Shown: positions 1 through 4,089 of the stretch, piece by piece
Numbering within the stretch: position 1 is the stretch's first letter
Layout of the letters: each line of letters starts with the position of its first letter
Source: Streptomyces sp. SCSIO 30461
Lineage (GTDB): Bacteria; Actinomycetota; Actinomycetes; Streptomycetales; Streptomycetaceae
Assembly (NCBI RefSeq): GCF_037023745.1
Contig: NZ_CP146101.1
Location: 2,720,001-2,784,000, forward strand
DNA: 64,000 bases
Reading direction: 5' to 3'
Translations under genes and position numbers: made by a program
The notes under the pieces: model-generated
The model's input: the letters and a program-made list of their open reading frames with translations, nothing else
Databases searched by the model: none
What the model was told of the DNA's origin: nothing

Positions 1-465
1 CTTGGCCCTGGCCTTCTCCTCGTCACGCCGCCCGCCACCGAACACGGCGTCGAAGCGGTGCTGCTGGATGGCCTCGGTCAGCGGCACGGTCTGGAGCGGA
101 TTGCGTGTGCCGTCGGGGCGCTCGCGAAGCTTGCCCGCGTCGATGTAGTCCTGCACGGAGGCGACGTGGAGCCGCAGACCGTGTCGGGCGACCGTGCGGT
201 CGCGGTACTCGATGACCTCGGGGAAGTTGTGCCCGGTGTCCACGTGCAGCAGCGAGAACGGGACCGCGGCGGGCGCGAACGCCTTCAGCGCCAGATGCAG
301 CATCACGATGGAGTCCTTGCCGCCGGAGAAGAGGATCACCGGCCGCTCGAACTCACCCGCCACCTCGCGGAAGATGTGCACCCCCTCGGACTCCAGAGCG
401 TCCAGATGCGTCAGCGCGTACGGGCTGCCGGTGGCACCGCTCGCGATGTCGACACTCGTGGTCAT
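1..465 (-). CDS. cysD: Sulfate adenylyltransferase subunit 2 (CysD), 3' end outside the window
   Basis: CysD is the ATP-pyrophosphatase half of ATP sulfurylase. With the GTPase CysN it makes adenosine 5'-phosphosulfate (APS) from sulfate and ATP in the cytoplasm. The 155 visible residues carry the PP-loop 'LFSGGKDS' near residues 45-52, the downstream 'HVDTGHNFPE' block and a 'GGGRRDEEKARAK' stretch, as in full-length CysD. The C-terminal half lies beyond base 1. The ATG overlaps the cysC stop as ATGA, so the genes are translationally coupled. It is the last visible gene of the minus-strand sulfur operon; cysN is expected next. Confidence 0.95.
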   Translation of the reverse strand, partial: MTTSVDIASGATGSPYALTHLDALESEGVHIFREVAGEFERPVILFSGGKDSIVMLHLALKAFAPAAVPFSLLHVDTGHNFPEVIEYRDRTVARHGLRLHVASVQDYIDAGKLRERPDGTRNPLQTVPLTEAIQQHRFDAVFGGGRRDEEKARAK

Positions 466-1046
466 GCCAGTCCCTTCTCGGTCAGCAGTGCGTAGAGCGC
501 CGCGGCGGATTCCTCGACCGTCTGGGTGTGCGACTCGATCCGCAGGTCCGGGGACTCCGGCGCCTCGTACGGGTCGTCCACCCCGGTGAGACCACTGATC
601 TCACCCGCCGCCTGCTTGGCGTACAGGCCCTTCACGTCGCGTACCGAGCACACCTCCACCGGAGTCGCGACATGCACCTCGACATAGGGCGTGCCCTCGG
701 CGTCGTGGCGCTTGCGGACGGACTCGCGGCTGTCGGCGTACGGAGCGATCACCGGCACCAGGACCTGCACACCGTTCGACGCGAGGAGCTCGGCGACAAA
801 GCCGATGCGCTGCACGTTGGTGTGCCGGTCCTCGCGGTTGAAGCCCAGGCCCGCGGAGAGGAACTCGCGGATCTCGTCGCCGTCGAGCACCTCGACACAT
901 CGCCCGTCCGCGCGCAGCCGGTCCGCCAGCGCGAACGCGATCGTGGTCTTGCCCGCGCTCGGCAGCCCGGTGAGCCAGATGGTGGCCCCAGTCACGTGCT
1001 TCTCCTGTTGGTCGTCGGCCGTCGTTGTCGTTCCGGTCGCATTCAT
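462..1046 (-). CDS. cysC: Adenylylsulfate kinase (CysC)
   Basis: APS kinase phosphorylates APS to PAPS. The 194-residue protein has a P-loop 'GLPSAGKTT' at residues 27-35, then the family's 'DGDEIREFLSAGLGF' and 'GLYAKQAAGEISGLTG' blocks, and is of normal length. The ATG is chosen because it overlaps the cysH stop by one base (TGATG); the open frame continues further upstream without family similarity. The stop overlaps the cysD start (ATGA). Because CysH here has iron-sulfur APS-reductase motifs, PAPS from CysC may serve sulfotransferases rather than reduction; that is inference. Confidence 0.95.
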   Translation of the reverse strand: MNATGTTTTADDQQEKHVTGATIWLTGLPSAGKTTIAFALADRLRADGRCVEVLDGDEIREFLSAGLGFNREDRHTNVQRIGFVAELLASNGVQVLVPVIAPYADSRESVRKRHDAEGTPYVEVHVATPVEVCSVRDVKGLYAKQAAGEISGLTGVDDPYEAPESPDLRIESHTQTVEESAAALYALLTEKGLA

Positions 1047-1756
1047 CAGCCGTGCAGCCCGCACTCGGTCTTGCCGCGGCCCGCCCAGCGGCCGGCCCTG
1101 GCGTCCTCGCCCTCCAGTACGCGGCGGGTGCAGGGGGCGCAGCCGACGGAGGCGTAACCGTCCATCAGCAGCGGGTTGGTGAGGACCCCGTGCTCGGCGA
1201 CATAAGCGTCCACGTCGTCCTGTGTCCAGCGGGCGATGGGGGACACCTTCACCTTGCGGCGCCTCTCGTCCCAGCCGACGACCGGGGTGTTCGCCCGGGT
1301 CGGGGACTCGTCCCGGCGCAGTCCGGTCGCCCACGCGTCGTATCCGGTCAGGCCCTCCTCAAGCGGCTTGACCTTGCGCAGCGCACAGCACAGGTCGGGG
1401 TCGCGGTCGTGCAGCCGCGGGCCGTGCTCCGCGTCCTGCTCGGCCACCGTCAGGCGCGGGGTGAGGGTGATGACGTTGACGTCCATCACGGCGGCCACGG
1501 CGTCCCGGGTACCGATGGTCTCCTCGAAGTGGTAGCCGGTGTCCAGGAAGACCACATCGACTCCGGGCCTGGCCCGCGCGGCGAGATGCGCGACGACCGC
1601 GTCCTCCATGGAGGAGGTGACGCAGAAGCGCGGACCGAAGGTCTCCGCCGCCCAGGTCAGGATCTCCGGGGCGGAGGCGTCTTCGAGGTCCCGGCCGGCC
1701 TGCTCGGCGATGGCCTTGAGCTCTTCCTCGGTGCCGACCGTCTCGGCCGTCGTCAT
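1046..1756 (-). CDS. cysH: APS reductase, iron-sulfur type (CysH)
   Basis: This enzyme reduces adenylyl sulfate to sulfite in the cytoplasm with thioredoxin-type electrons. The 236-residue protein has a Cys-Cys pair at 123-124 ('DLCCALRK') and a CxxC at 206-209 ('CAPC'). Together these form the [4Fe-4S] ligand set that separates APS reductases from cluster-free PAPS reductases. The C-terminal 'ECGLH' holds the catalytic cysteine at 232. The ATG overlaps the stop of the upstream small zinc protein (ATGA). The frame stays open upstream of this ATG but shows no family similarity. The gene sits between sulfite reductase and cysC in one operon. Confidence 0.95.
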   Translation of the reverse strand: MTTAETVGTEEELKAIAEQAGRDLEDASAPEILTWAAETFGPRFCVTSSMEDAVVAHLAARARPGVDVVFLDTGYHFEETIGTRDAVAAVMDVNVITLTPRLTVAEQDAEHGPRLHDRDPDLCCALRKVKPLEEGLTGYDAWATGLRRDESPTRANTPVVGWDERRRKVKVSPIARWTQDDVDAYVAEHGVLTNPLLMDGYASVGCAPCTRRVLEGEDARAGRWAGRGKTECGLHG

Positions 1757-1980
1757 ATCCCGTCCCCTCCCGTGTGGTCCGCCCGGGTCTGCCGCACGCC
1801 CCGGGCGAGCAGCCCGAGGAACTTCAGCCGGAAGGCCCGGTTGCATGCCGCGCACTCCCAGGCTCCTCCCCCGTGACCTCCGCTTCGCTTCGTGTGGGGG
1901 GACCCCCCTCCCTCCTCGCTCGGACGCAGGTCCTCGTCACCGCAGTAGGGGCAGTAGAAGGGGGCGGCGCGCTCGCTCAT
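1753..1980 (-). CDS. Small zinc-finger-like protein of the sulfur operon
   Basis: A 75-residue protein with two CxxC pairs ('YCPYCGDE' near the N-terminus and 'ECAACNRAF' mid-protein) that could bind zinc. Small proteins of this kind commonly lie between sulfite reductase and cysH in Streptomyces; their role is unknown to me. Start and stop both overlap the neighbours by ATGA, which strongly supports a real coupled gene. The segment between the CxxC pairs is glycine-rich and is encoded by a G-run/C-run hairpin element that looks inserted. Rubredoxin-like electron transfer to the reductases is possible but unproven. Confidence 0.75.
   Translation of the reverse strand: MSERAAPFYCPYCGDEDLRPSEEGGGSPHTKRSGGHGGGAWECAACNRAFRLKFLGLLARGVRQTRADHTGGDGI
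1864..1921. repeat. G/C-run hairpin element inside the small zinc-protein gene
   Basis: Runs of five or six C and G flank a 'CTTCGCTTCG' core, which can fold into a strong hairpin. The composition differs from the codon pattern around it and encodes the Gly/Ser/His-rich linker between the two CxxC motifs. A related pattern (GTGGGGG, CACCTCCC, GGGGGGAG) occurs near 19279-19314. From memory, such elements are scattered through Streptomyces genomes, usually between genes. Confidence 0.45.
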
Positions 1981-3674
1981 GAGAGGGCCTCCTCGCCGGC
2001 ACGGGCCACCCAGGCGGCGAAGCGCTCGCCGTCCTCGCGCTGCTCCTGGAAGCGGCGCAGCACGCGCTCGACGTAGTCGGGCAGCTCGGCCGACGTGACC
2101 TTCAGCCCCCGGACCTTGCGTCCGAAGCCGGCCTCCAGGCCCAGCGCGCCGCCGAGGTGCACCTGGAAACCCTCTACCTGGTTGCCGTTGTCGTCCAGCA
2201 CCAACTGCCCCTTGAGACCGATGTCCGCCACCTGGATACGGGCGCACGCGTTCGGGCAGCCGTTGATGTTGATGGTGATCGGCACGTCGAAGTCGGGGAT
2301 ACGGCGTTCGAGTTCGTCGATCAGCGAGGCGCCGCGCGCCTTGGTCTCGACAATGGCCAGCTTGCAGAACTCGATGCCGGTGCAGGCCATCGTGCCGCGC
2401 CGGAACGGGGAGGGCGTGACCCGCAGGTCGAGCGCCTCGAGCCCGGCGACAAGCGACTGCAGGTGCGGCTCGTCCACATCGAGCACCAGCATCTTCTGCT
2501 CGGCCGTGGTGCGCAGCCGGCCGGAGCCATGCCGCTCGGCCAGTTCGGCGATCTTGGTGAGTGTGGTGCCGTCGACCCGGCCGACGCGCGGTGCGAAACC
2601 GACGTAGTAGCGGCCGTCAAGCTGCCGGTGCACACCGACGTGGTCACGCCACTGCTGTACGGGTTGCTCGGGTGCCGGGCCGTCCAGCAGCTCGCGCTTG
2701 AGGTACTCGTCCTCCAACACCTGGCGGAACTTCTCCGCACCCCAGTCCGCGACCAGGAACTTCAGCCTGGCGCGGGTGCGCAGCCGACGGTAGCCGTAGT
2801 CGCGGAAGATCGAGATGACGCCCTCGTAGACATCCGGGACCTCGTCCAGCGGCACCCAGGCGCCCAGCCGCACACCGATCTTGGGGTTGGTGGACAGTCC
2901 GCCGCCTACCCAGAGGTCGAATCCGGGGCCGTGCTCGGGGTGGTTCACACCGACGAACGCGATGTCGTTGATCTCATGGGCCACATCGAGCAGCGGGGAG
3001 CCCGAGATCGCGGACTTGAACTTGCGGGGCAGGTTGGAGAAGTCCTTGTTGCCGACGATGCGGCGCTGGATCTCGTCGATGGCGGGGGTGCCGTCGATGA
3101 TCTCGTCCTCGGCGATGCCCGCCACCGGTGAGCCGAGGATGACGCGCGGGGTGTCGCCGCAGGCCTCTGTGGTCGACAGGCCGACGGCCTCCAGCCGGTG
3201 CCAGATCTCGGGCACGTCCTCGATCCGGATCCAGTGGTACTGCACGTTCTGCCGGTCGGTGATGTCGGCCGTGCCGCGGGCGAACTCCTCGGAGATCTCG
3301 CCGATCACCCGTAGTTGCTGGGTGGTCAGCCGCCCGCCGTCGATCCGCACGCGCAGCATGAAGTACTCGTCGTCCAGCTCCTCCGGCTCCAGGATCGCGG
3401 TCTTGCCGCCGTCGATCCCGGGCTTGCGCTGGGTGTAGAGACCCCACCAGCGCATCCGGCCGCGCAGGTCGCTGGGGTCGATGGAGTCGAATCCGGCCTT
3501 GGAGTAGATCGTCTCAATGCGTGTCCGCACATTGAGACCGTCGTCGTCCTTCTTGAACTGCTCATTGCCGTTCAGCGGCGTGAAGTGGCCAACGGCCCAC
3601 TGCCCTTCGCCGCGGTGGCGACCGGCCTTGCGGCGGGGCGTGGCGGTGGCGGGCTTCTCGGGGGTGGCGGCCAT
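1977..3674 (-). CDS. sir: Ferredoxin-type sulfite reductase (nitrite/sulfite reductase family)
   Basis: Siroheme/[4Fe-4S] enzyme that reduces sulfite to sulfide with ferredoxin electrons. The 565-residue protein has the coupled-cluster cysteines in 'CTGIEFC' (431, 437) and 'NGCPNAC' (473, 477). Tyr80 ('WWGLYTQRK') and Cys172 ('TTEACGD') match the cross-linked Tyr-Cys pair known from the Mycobacterium tuberculosis enzyme, at a constant offset of 11. With cysH, cysC and cysD downstream, a sulfite role is far more likely than a nitrite one. The ATG follows 'GAAGGA' by about 9 nt. A leader-peptide ORF lies about 125 bp upstream, pointing to cysteine-linked attenuation. Its stop overlaps the next start (ATGA). 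Confidence 0.95.
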   Translation of the reverse strand: MAATPEKPATATPRRKAGRHRGEGQWAVGHFTPLNGNEQFKKDDDGLNVRTRIETIYSKAGFDSIDPSDLRGRMRWWGLYTQRKPGIDGGKTAILEPEELDDEYFMLRVRIDGGRLTTQQLRVIGEISEEFARGTADITDRQNVQYHWIRIEDVPEIWHRLEAVGLSTTEACGDTPRVILGSPVAGIAEDEIIDGTPAIDEIQRRIVGNKDFSNLPRKFKSAISGSPLLDVAHEINDIAFVGVNHPEHGPGFDLWVGGGLSTNPKIGVRLGAWVPLDEVPDVYEGVISIFRDYGYRRLRTRARLKFLVADWGAEKFRQVLEDEYLKRELLDGPAPEQPVQQWRDHVGVHRQLDGRYYVGFAPRVGRVDGTTLTKIAELAERHGSGRLRTTAEQKMLVLDVDEPHLQSLVAGLEALDLRVTPSPFRRGTMACTGIEFCKLAIVETKARGASLIDELERRIPDFDVPITININGCPNACARIQVADIGLKGQLVLDDNGNQVEGFQVHLGGALGLEAGFGRKVRGLKVTSAELPDYVERVLRRFQEQREDGERFAAWVARAGEEALS

Positions 3675-3744
3675 GACGATACGTCCTTCGGGACTGCGGG
3701 AGGGCGGCTCTGACCTGCGCTCGGGCAACACCGACCAGGGTGTG

Positions 3745-3758
3745 GCGCAGCGCTGCGC
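3745..3758. promoter_or_regulatory. 14-bp perfect palindrome in the sulfite reductase 5' leader
   Basis: The sequence GCGCAGCGCTGCGC is fully self-complementary. It lies between the end of the leader-peptide ORF and the sulfite reductase start. It could be an operator, or a hairpin that competes with ribosomes in an attenuation mechanism. No U-run follows, so a simple intrinsic terminator is not evident. Confidence 0.4.
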
Positions 3759-3799
3759 AGGAAGCGGGGATATCTCGGGATCGCGGCGGTGCTGGGTCG

Positions 3800-3883
3800 T
3801 CAGCGCGCCGGACACATGGCGCTGGACATGCGGCCGAGATCGACGTGCCGCCGACTCACCAAGGCAATTCCAGCTCGAGACAT
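3800..3883 (-). CDS. Cysteine-containing leader peptide of the sulfur operon
   Basis: A 27-residue ORF with the 'RRHVDLGR' core and a C-terminal 'SSAMCPAR', ending in TGA. This pattern (an RRHVDL core followed by cysteine near the end) marks actinobacterial leader peptides found before sulfur-assimilation genes. In mycobacteria, comparable cysteine-encoding short ORFs act as cysteine-responsive attenuators. No ribosome-binding site precedes the ATG, which fits leaderless or near-leaderless translation. It lies in the transcribed leader of the sulfite reductase operon. The single Cys codon here is weaker than the mycobacterial poly-Cys runs, so the sensing mode may differ. Confidence 0.8.
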   Translation of the reverse strand: MSRAGIALVSRRHVDLGRMSSAMCPAR

Positions 3884-3925
3884 GACGGAAGCGTGGCACG
3901 CTGCTTTGGAACCAGTCCACCGTTA

Positions 3926-3938
3926 TCCATAATATGGA
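3926..3938. promoter_or_regulatory. Palindrome upstream of the sulfur operon leader
   Basis: Arms TCCATA and TATGGA around one A form an AT-rich 13-bp palindrome, conspicuous in this GC-rich DNA. It lies about 45 bp upstream of the leader-peptide ATG. On the minus strand it contains TATTAT, a plausible -10 element, so a repressor here could block the promoter. I cannot name the regulator. Confidence 0.5.
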
Positions 3939-4089
3939 CATCACTGTCCCGCATCGCGAGACAGTGTGTCCCGGGTCACCCAGCCGGGACAGCCCGCCCT
4001 CCCGGTGAGCCGCGCCGCGCGCCGCCTCCAGGGAGCCTCAGCGGCCCTGGCGGCCTCGTCCCGGTGCCGCCAGGGACGCCACCGGGTTC

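Follow-up and report, generated by a model that had tools for sequence, protein, structure and literature searches.

Results

The leader and the sir operon

The window, a 64-kb stretch of a single 8.05 Mb contig whose best sir relatives are found in Streptomyces, carries on its minus strand a sulfite reductase gene (sir) together with cysH-like and cysC-like genes (Table 1). A first-pass annotation had pointed to a 27-codon ORF with an RRHVDL core and one Cys in front of the sulfite reductase gene. Re-reading confirmed the ORF at exactly the same coordinates, on the minus strand, with a single Cys codon among its 27 codons. Its place ahead of the operon stands as well: a spacer of 125 nt separates the leader from the sir ATG (3674), which is in a different frame, and sir, cysH and cysC follow. 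A sir gene overlapping the leader was considered and rejected; its frame is open up to 3944, yet the ATG at 3674 with its SD-like sequence fits the start, which is further supported by the presence of this ATG at the same point in 70/70 loci scored. The Rfam scan of the whole window gave no match at gathering scores, and no intrinsic terminator was found in 3600-4000.

Table 1. Features of the leader-sir region in window coordinates
Feature	Position	Strand	Remarks
cysC-like adenylylsulfate kinase	462..1046	minus	PF01583
cysH-like PAPS reductase	1046..1756	minus	PF01507
Small ORF MSERAAPFYCPYCGDEDLRP..., probable operon member	1753..1980	minus	Follows sir
Sulfite reductase (sir), NIR_SIR family, 565 aa	1977..3674	minus	Domain match
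Spacer, leader stop to sir	3675..3799	minus	C-rich, G-poor; holds sir SD-like GAAGGA at 3684-3689
Leader ORF, 27 codons and stop	3800-3883	minus	Peptide MSRAGIALVSRRHVDLGRMSSAMCPAR, then stop
UGU Cys codon (codon 24), +11 from His of HVDL	3812..3814	minus	TGT in 78/78 aligned sir leaders
RRHVDL core, codons 11-16	3836..3853	minus	Core common to NF042934 family
-10-like CACGCT, ends 6 nt before ATG	3890..3895	minus	Predicts leaderless mRNA
-35-like TGGACT, 18 nt from -10-like box	3914..3919	minus	First five bases 78/78, last 76/78

The leader belongs to a catalogued family

Judged by score, the leader is a member of an already catalogued family, NF042934 ("putative leader peptide", cis_reg_atten), to which leaders of many other sulfur genes belong as well. 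The window peptide reaches 32.5 bits against this model (cut-off 27, E 4.4e-8). Against NF042936, the model of the Cys-rich leader Ms4527A, it scores 28.8 bits, below the cut-off of 45. On the grounds of the NF042934 score and of conservation across Streptomyces, the leader ORF is more than a chance reading frame.

Matches to NF042934 occur in 41/41 Streptomyces genomes, in 31/31 genomes of genus g3 (E up to 0.01; 28 over cut-off), in 108 of the 148 genomes of the class (93 over cut-off) and in 16 of 197 genomes drawn from the phylum (13 over cut-off). In these searches none of the 14 control genomes had a match; at E up to 10, matches appear in 10/14 of them, none over cut-off. Leaders of genus g3 also pass the Ms4527A and Ms5788A models.

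The source genome has five likely copies of the leader, located before sir, a ThiS/CysO-like gene, a rhodanese gene, an SDF symporter gene and a 2OG-Fe oxygenase gene, of which the last two score below the NF042934 cut-off. The genes downstream of representative leaders are largely sulfur genes. In relatives, single representatives precede genes for cysteine dioxygenase, luciferase-like monooxygenases, NMT1-type binding proteins, sulfatase and flavin reductases. Representatives without a plain sulfur link downstream precede acyl-CoA dehydrogenase-like, ABC and GST-like genes, and in one case a gene without Pfam match.

Conservation of the sir leader

Among the best 80 Streptomyces sir loci, one (L039) could not be scored because only 116 nt precede its sir gene. 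The leader was found upstream of sir in all 79 testable loci, 77 by regex and two (L083 and L096) with HVDH for HVDL. Comparison of the peptide across Streptomyces had been proposed in the first-pass annotation as a test, and its outcome was conservation throughout.

In an alignment of 78 rows (the 77 regex-positive loci and the window) the leader ORF is kept almost base by base, and conservation collapses directly after the stop. Mean synonymous entropy at codons of conserved amino acids is 0.236 in the leader against 0.677 in degeneracy-matched sir codons; not one of 20000 random draws of sir codons was as low, although 3 of 382 sliding windows within sir were as frozen as the leader. The bases of the leader are thus under selection beyond what the peptide would require. 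The Cys codons of the sir gene in the same strains are TGC in 387 cases and TGT in 5, whereas the leader Cys codon is invariably TGT. Codons 6, 8 and 10 of the Streptomyces sir leader (ATT, TTG and AGT) are nearly fixed too; in the source genome they are uncommon, serving for 1.9, 4.1 and 3.0% of their amino acids, respectively.

Start region

The first-pass annotation had noted the absence of a Shine-Dalgarno sequence before the leader, and on re-reading none is visible there. This fits a predicted leaderless start, which is indicated by a conserved NANNNT box and would explain the missing Shine-Dalgarno sequence. In the 78 rows the A and T of this box, at -12 to -7 from the ATG of the sir leader, are invariant; the TGGACT box, at -36 to -31, hardly varies. 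The two boxes are spaced as in a promoter that would start transcription (+1) on the A of the leader ATG. Since both lie upstream of the ATG, they give no sign of a transcription start downstream of 3800, which the first-pass annotation had named as an objection. Such geometry suggests that the sir leader mRNA is probably leaderless, with its start at or near the ATG. Leaderless mRNAs account for 21% of primary starts in S. coelicolor, as stated in the accessible text of one report (PMC4895711).

Over the family, 105/256 leaders have TANNNT 6-7 nt upstream of an in-frame start codon (ATG, GTG or TTG), compared to 1 to 41 in shifted controls (eight distinct shifts); the looser NANNNT is found at the same distance in 161 leaders, compared to 18 to 91. 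Four of the five leader copies of the source genome have TANNNT when inspected by eye, the sir copy with its CACGCT being of the weaker kind.

Strongly conserved GGAC/GTCC boxes (GGGAC, TGTCC, TGGA(C/T), TGGACT) are located upstream of the leader start, at 3914-3950 on the minus strand. They overlap the -35-like box and are perhaps a candidate regulator site. As a regulon motif, TGTCCNNATNNTGGAY was tried and set aside: with at most one mismatch allowed, it matched at 18+24 places, two of them exactly, compared to 18+8 with the motif reversed, and no clear regulon emerged.

A fixed UGU codon in register with the peptide

With the His of HVDL numbered 0, codons were counted over 268 loci (162 + 106), best-scoring first, among the matches listed. 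Of 276 regex matches, 16 were removed by inspection as non-leaders (L008 second, L111, L256 second, L257 plus, L261 second, L269 plus, L289 second, L293 plus, L299 second, L310 second, L315 plus, L318 minus, L336 plus, L338 plus, L339 plus, L344 plus), leaving 260 leaders, 258 of them distinct. Codon +11 is TGT in 253 of these 258, the rest being one TGC, two TGA, one TAG and one GGG. Loci without regex match were inspected at the position of the HMM match, and L336 at its correct position, by which 12 leaders were added (11 TGT, 1 TGC), L356 and L111 being non-leaders. Combined, TGT occupies +11 in 264/270 family leaders; the two TGC codons belong to L227 and L110. A tally by HMM places alone gave TGT in 95/97, the other two being L111 and L009, where the HMM alignment ends early and the actual +11 codon is TGT. 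The loci unscored in that tally (L110, L121, L271, L272, L273, L275, L276; L177, L287 and L294, these three with shifted match; L173) were for the most part read singly or by regex.

TGT makes up 42 of 367 Cys codons in a sample of the source genome (112 roughly called genes). The other Cys codons of the 218 non-mycobacteria-like leaders are TGC in 188 cases and TGT in 22. In the 40 mycobacteria-like leaders, all with TGT at +11, the contrast is weaker (TGC 105, TGT 92). Leader rows are related by descent, so that Fisher values serve to rank the effect and no more, and comparison within leaders is the better control: CAT is used at His 0 in 46/196, GAT at Asp +2 in 65/258 and TGT at Cys +4 in 5/111, versus TGT at Cys +11 in 253/254. 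Since the searches used a protein model, they cannot have favoured one Cys codon over the other. Descent alone was rejected as the cause of TGT; it is unlikely, given the variation seen at other two-fold sites within these leaders.

The number of codons from +11 to the stop varies, being 0 to 6 in 244/258 leaders and 2 to 4 in 191/258. Evidently, TGT is locked to the register of the nascent peptide and not to the stop. This register points to an event that would take place while the ribosome holds the +11 codon, most simply in its A site, and the motif is inside the tunnel. The first-pass annotation had suggested that sensing may rely on the conserved peptide in place of a Cys run. The peptide is indeed conserved and a run is lacking; the sensing, though, is probably done by one UGU codon in register with the conserved peptide and not by the peptide alone.

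Leaders of the cysteine dioxygenase type (L218 and 27 others) have Cys at both +9 and +11, with TGT at +11 in 28/28. Cysteine dioxygenase consumes cysteine, hence its sign of control is expected to be opposite to that of sir.

Composition of the spacer

The spacer of the window, its last 15 nt omitted, has a C content of 0.455 and a G content of 0.273. Similar values are found over the family in the 80 nt after the leader stop (C 0.448, G 0.280), where C exceeds G in 251/256 leaders; upstream of the leaders it does so in 115/256. Control 5' regions of the source genome, their starts crudely called, have C above G in 52/96 (C 0.341, G 0.337). RNA that is rich in C and poor in G suits Rho, which Seliverstov 2005, in its accessible text, suggested weakly for mycobacterial cys leaders (PMC1262725).

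Discussion

Our proposal starts from computed features, namely the ORF and its family conservation, the promoter-like geometry, the codon lock, the composition of the spacer and the sulfur genes downstream. Translation of the leader, its response to cysteine, ribosome arrest at UGU and the kind of output, be it Rho-dependent or translational, are the parts that we infer. We regard it as reasonably probable that the leader acts as a cysteine-responsive attenuator on a leaderless mRNA, the RRHVDL nascent chain contributing to the halt of the ribosome at one slow UGU. Transcription would begin at or beside the leader ATG and the ribosome would load on the 5' end of the mRNA. With RRHVDL in the exit tunnel, it would then reach the lone UGU, 11 codons past the His. 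With charged tRNA-Cys in short supply, the ribosome would halt at this codon, which precedes the leader stop by a few codons. The operon would thereby stay on, the halted ribosome either protecting the first part of the C-rich spacer from Rho or preventing an inhibitory RNA structure from forming. With ample cysteine, the ribosome would be released at the stop and the bare spacer would favour early termination or poor initiation of sir. Leaders of this sort in M. smegmatis respond to cysteine according to papers citing Canestrari 2020, as far as their accessible text goes (PMC9031893).

Several findings speak against parts of this attenuator model. A ribosome stalled at UGU gives no opening of the sir SD in folding models, and it would extend over no more than the first part of the spacer, which leaves the exclusion of Rho unexplained. 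A simple switch turned on by low cysteine does not account for cysteine dioxygenase, which has the same leader and spacer.

Translational attenuation, in which the stalled ribosome would melt a structure hiding the sir RBS and UGU would be merely a slower Cys codon, is possible but doubtful. Attenuation of this kind, the stall freeing a downstream RBS, reportedly operates in M. smegmatis, and homology to mycobacterial leaders as well as the missing intrinsic terminator in 3600-4000 favour it. Over 70 sir loci (eight matched only from residue 14 were omitted), however, mean accessibility of the sir SD in the folding model was 0.498 free, 0.474 with the ribosome stalled at UGU and 0.512 with the ribosome at the stop; stalling at UGU raised it in 19/70 and lowered it in 28/70, so no gain is seen in what is a weak test. 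Pairing of the +11 third base with downstream RNA, in a likewise weak test, was no longer than in shuffled spacers (7.35 nt vs 7.49, n=258). A role of UGU as half of a helix with the spacer was discarded, as neither the folding nor the pairing comparison gave any sign of it. The accessible part of a review describes the cysteine genes of M. smegmatis as translationally attenuated (PMC13236596).

It is quite improbable that the bases are frozen chiefly on account of an RNA or DNA element within the ORF, such as an RNA structure or a regulator site, to which the peptide is irrelevant. Frozen wobble positions in the sir leader and conservation of the DNA upstream of it agree with such an element. 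Over the family, however, the bases differ and yet the peptide motif and the TGT register persist, 124 of the 128 distinct peptides from His to +11 being encoded with TGT only; the sir leader does not stand out in folding energy from randomised synonymous sequences (78 loci, mean z 0.62), and the window has no Rfam match. A leader that merely loads ribosomes for sir, by coupling or reinitiation and with no sensing, is very improbable: this role has been proposed for leader genes generally (PMC4833913, accessible text), but it leaves unexplained both the conserved peptide and codon and the 125 nt spacer devoid of conservation.

Coming back to the attenuator with a register-locked UGU, a more specific variant would make these leaders single-codon sensors gated by the nascent chain. 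RRHVDL would slow the ribosome critically at UGU, whose G-U wobble reading by tRNA-Cys(GCA) would lean on ms2i6A at A37, a modification that takes its sulfur from cysteine. We consider this variant unlikely. A tRNA-Cys(GCA) of the source genome has the loop CTGCAAA with A36, A37 and A38 (one tRNA found, part of the genome scanned). The A36-A37-A38 sequence is the substrate of MiaA. Presence of miaA (148/148 genomes of the class) and miaB (147/148) was dropped as a discriminator, being near universal and thus uninformative. In its accessible part, a review derives the sulfur of ms2i6A from cysteine, describes an effect of i6A on trp attenuation and names a fur leader peptide that is read by an ms2i6A-bearing tRNA (PMC7694415). 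If the variant is true, the leader would read the sulfur state of tRNA along with its charging, and would do so for sulfur genes in several operons across Actinomycetes.

Among the closest known systems are the mycobacterial leaders Ms4527A (before nirA) and Ms5788A (before cysA2), which share with the window leader a homologous core, a sulfur gene downstream and TGT at +11; their leaderless architecture is predicted for the window leader. Shell 2015, in its accessible text, showed leaderless mRNAs that carry small ORFs of this kind ahead of nirA/Msmeg_4527 and cysA2/Msmeg_5788 (PMC4633059). The mycobacterial leaders, however, carry Cys runs or clusters. The pattern of mycobacterial Cys-responsive leaders invoked in the first-pass annotation is therefore borne out in part: there is sequence kinship, and one Cys before sir-cysH-cysC, while a Cys run is absent and the NF042936 score is below cut-off.

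TnaC of the E. coli tna operon resembles the proposed mechanism in that the nascent chain stalls the ribosome late in a short leader, and in a proposed Rho output. Unlike the window leader, TnaC responds to tryptophan, and does so at the stop codon. The tna case is named as a parallel in the accessible text of PMC1262725. The uORFC-8-2 motif before cysS of Rhodobacterales is likewise an upstream ORF with Cys codons ahead of a cysteine-related gene; it differs by two tandem Cys codons, dominant UGC and an intrinsic terminator (PMC8632094, accessible text). A classical terminator/antiterminator attenuator needs an intrinsic terminator, and the leader-sir interval has none within 3600-4000. With Rho-dependent leader attenuators, the window leader has in common the C-rich, G-poor RNA that follows it.

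The NF042934 model covers the peptide only and is silent on the fixed UGU and the spacer. What is new is the single register-locked UGU and the C-rich spacer as features of the whole family. No paper on the Streptomyces sir leader or the fixed UGU was found among the matches listed, nor any mention of RRHVDL, HVDLVR, NF042934 or cis_reg_atten in the literature searched, most subscription papers being outside the scope of both searches. The accessible text of the S. lividans reannotation gives eight leader peptides, the sir leader not among them (PMC8079986).

Runs of regulatory codons are the usual explanation for attenuators. In the present family a single codon seems sufficient, with a third base that stays the same throughout a bacterial class, in register with the nascent peptide. 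If confirmed, peptide arrest and codon identity would be joined in one sensor, and the sulfur genes of antibiotic producers would gain a handle. How a single hungry codon can control an operon would then become a question that changing one base could test.

Of the four non-Cys codons at +11, three are stops, all from just two kinds of leader: TGA in the second leader of L100, TAG in the plus-strand leader of L128 and TGA in the plus-strand leader of L145. Stops at this position fit arrest at that very point, and in these leaders the ribosome could possibly be arrested at termination instead of at Cys. The genes that follow are GST-like (L100) or without Pfam match (L128). In L128 and L145, two family leaders are located near each other on opposite strands, one of the luciferase-like monooxygenase type and the other of the stop-at-+11 type.
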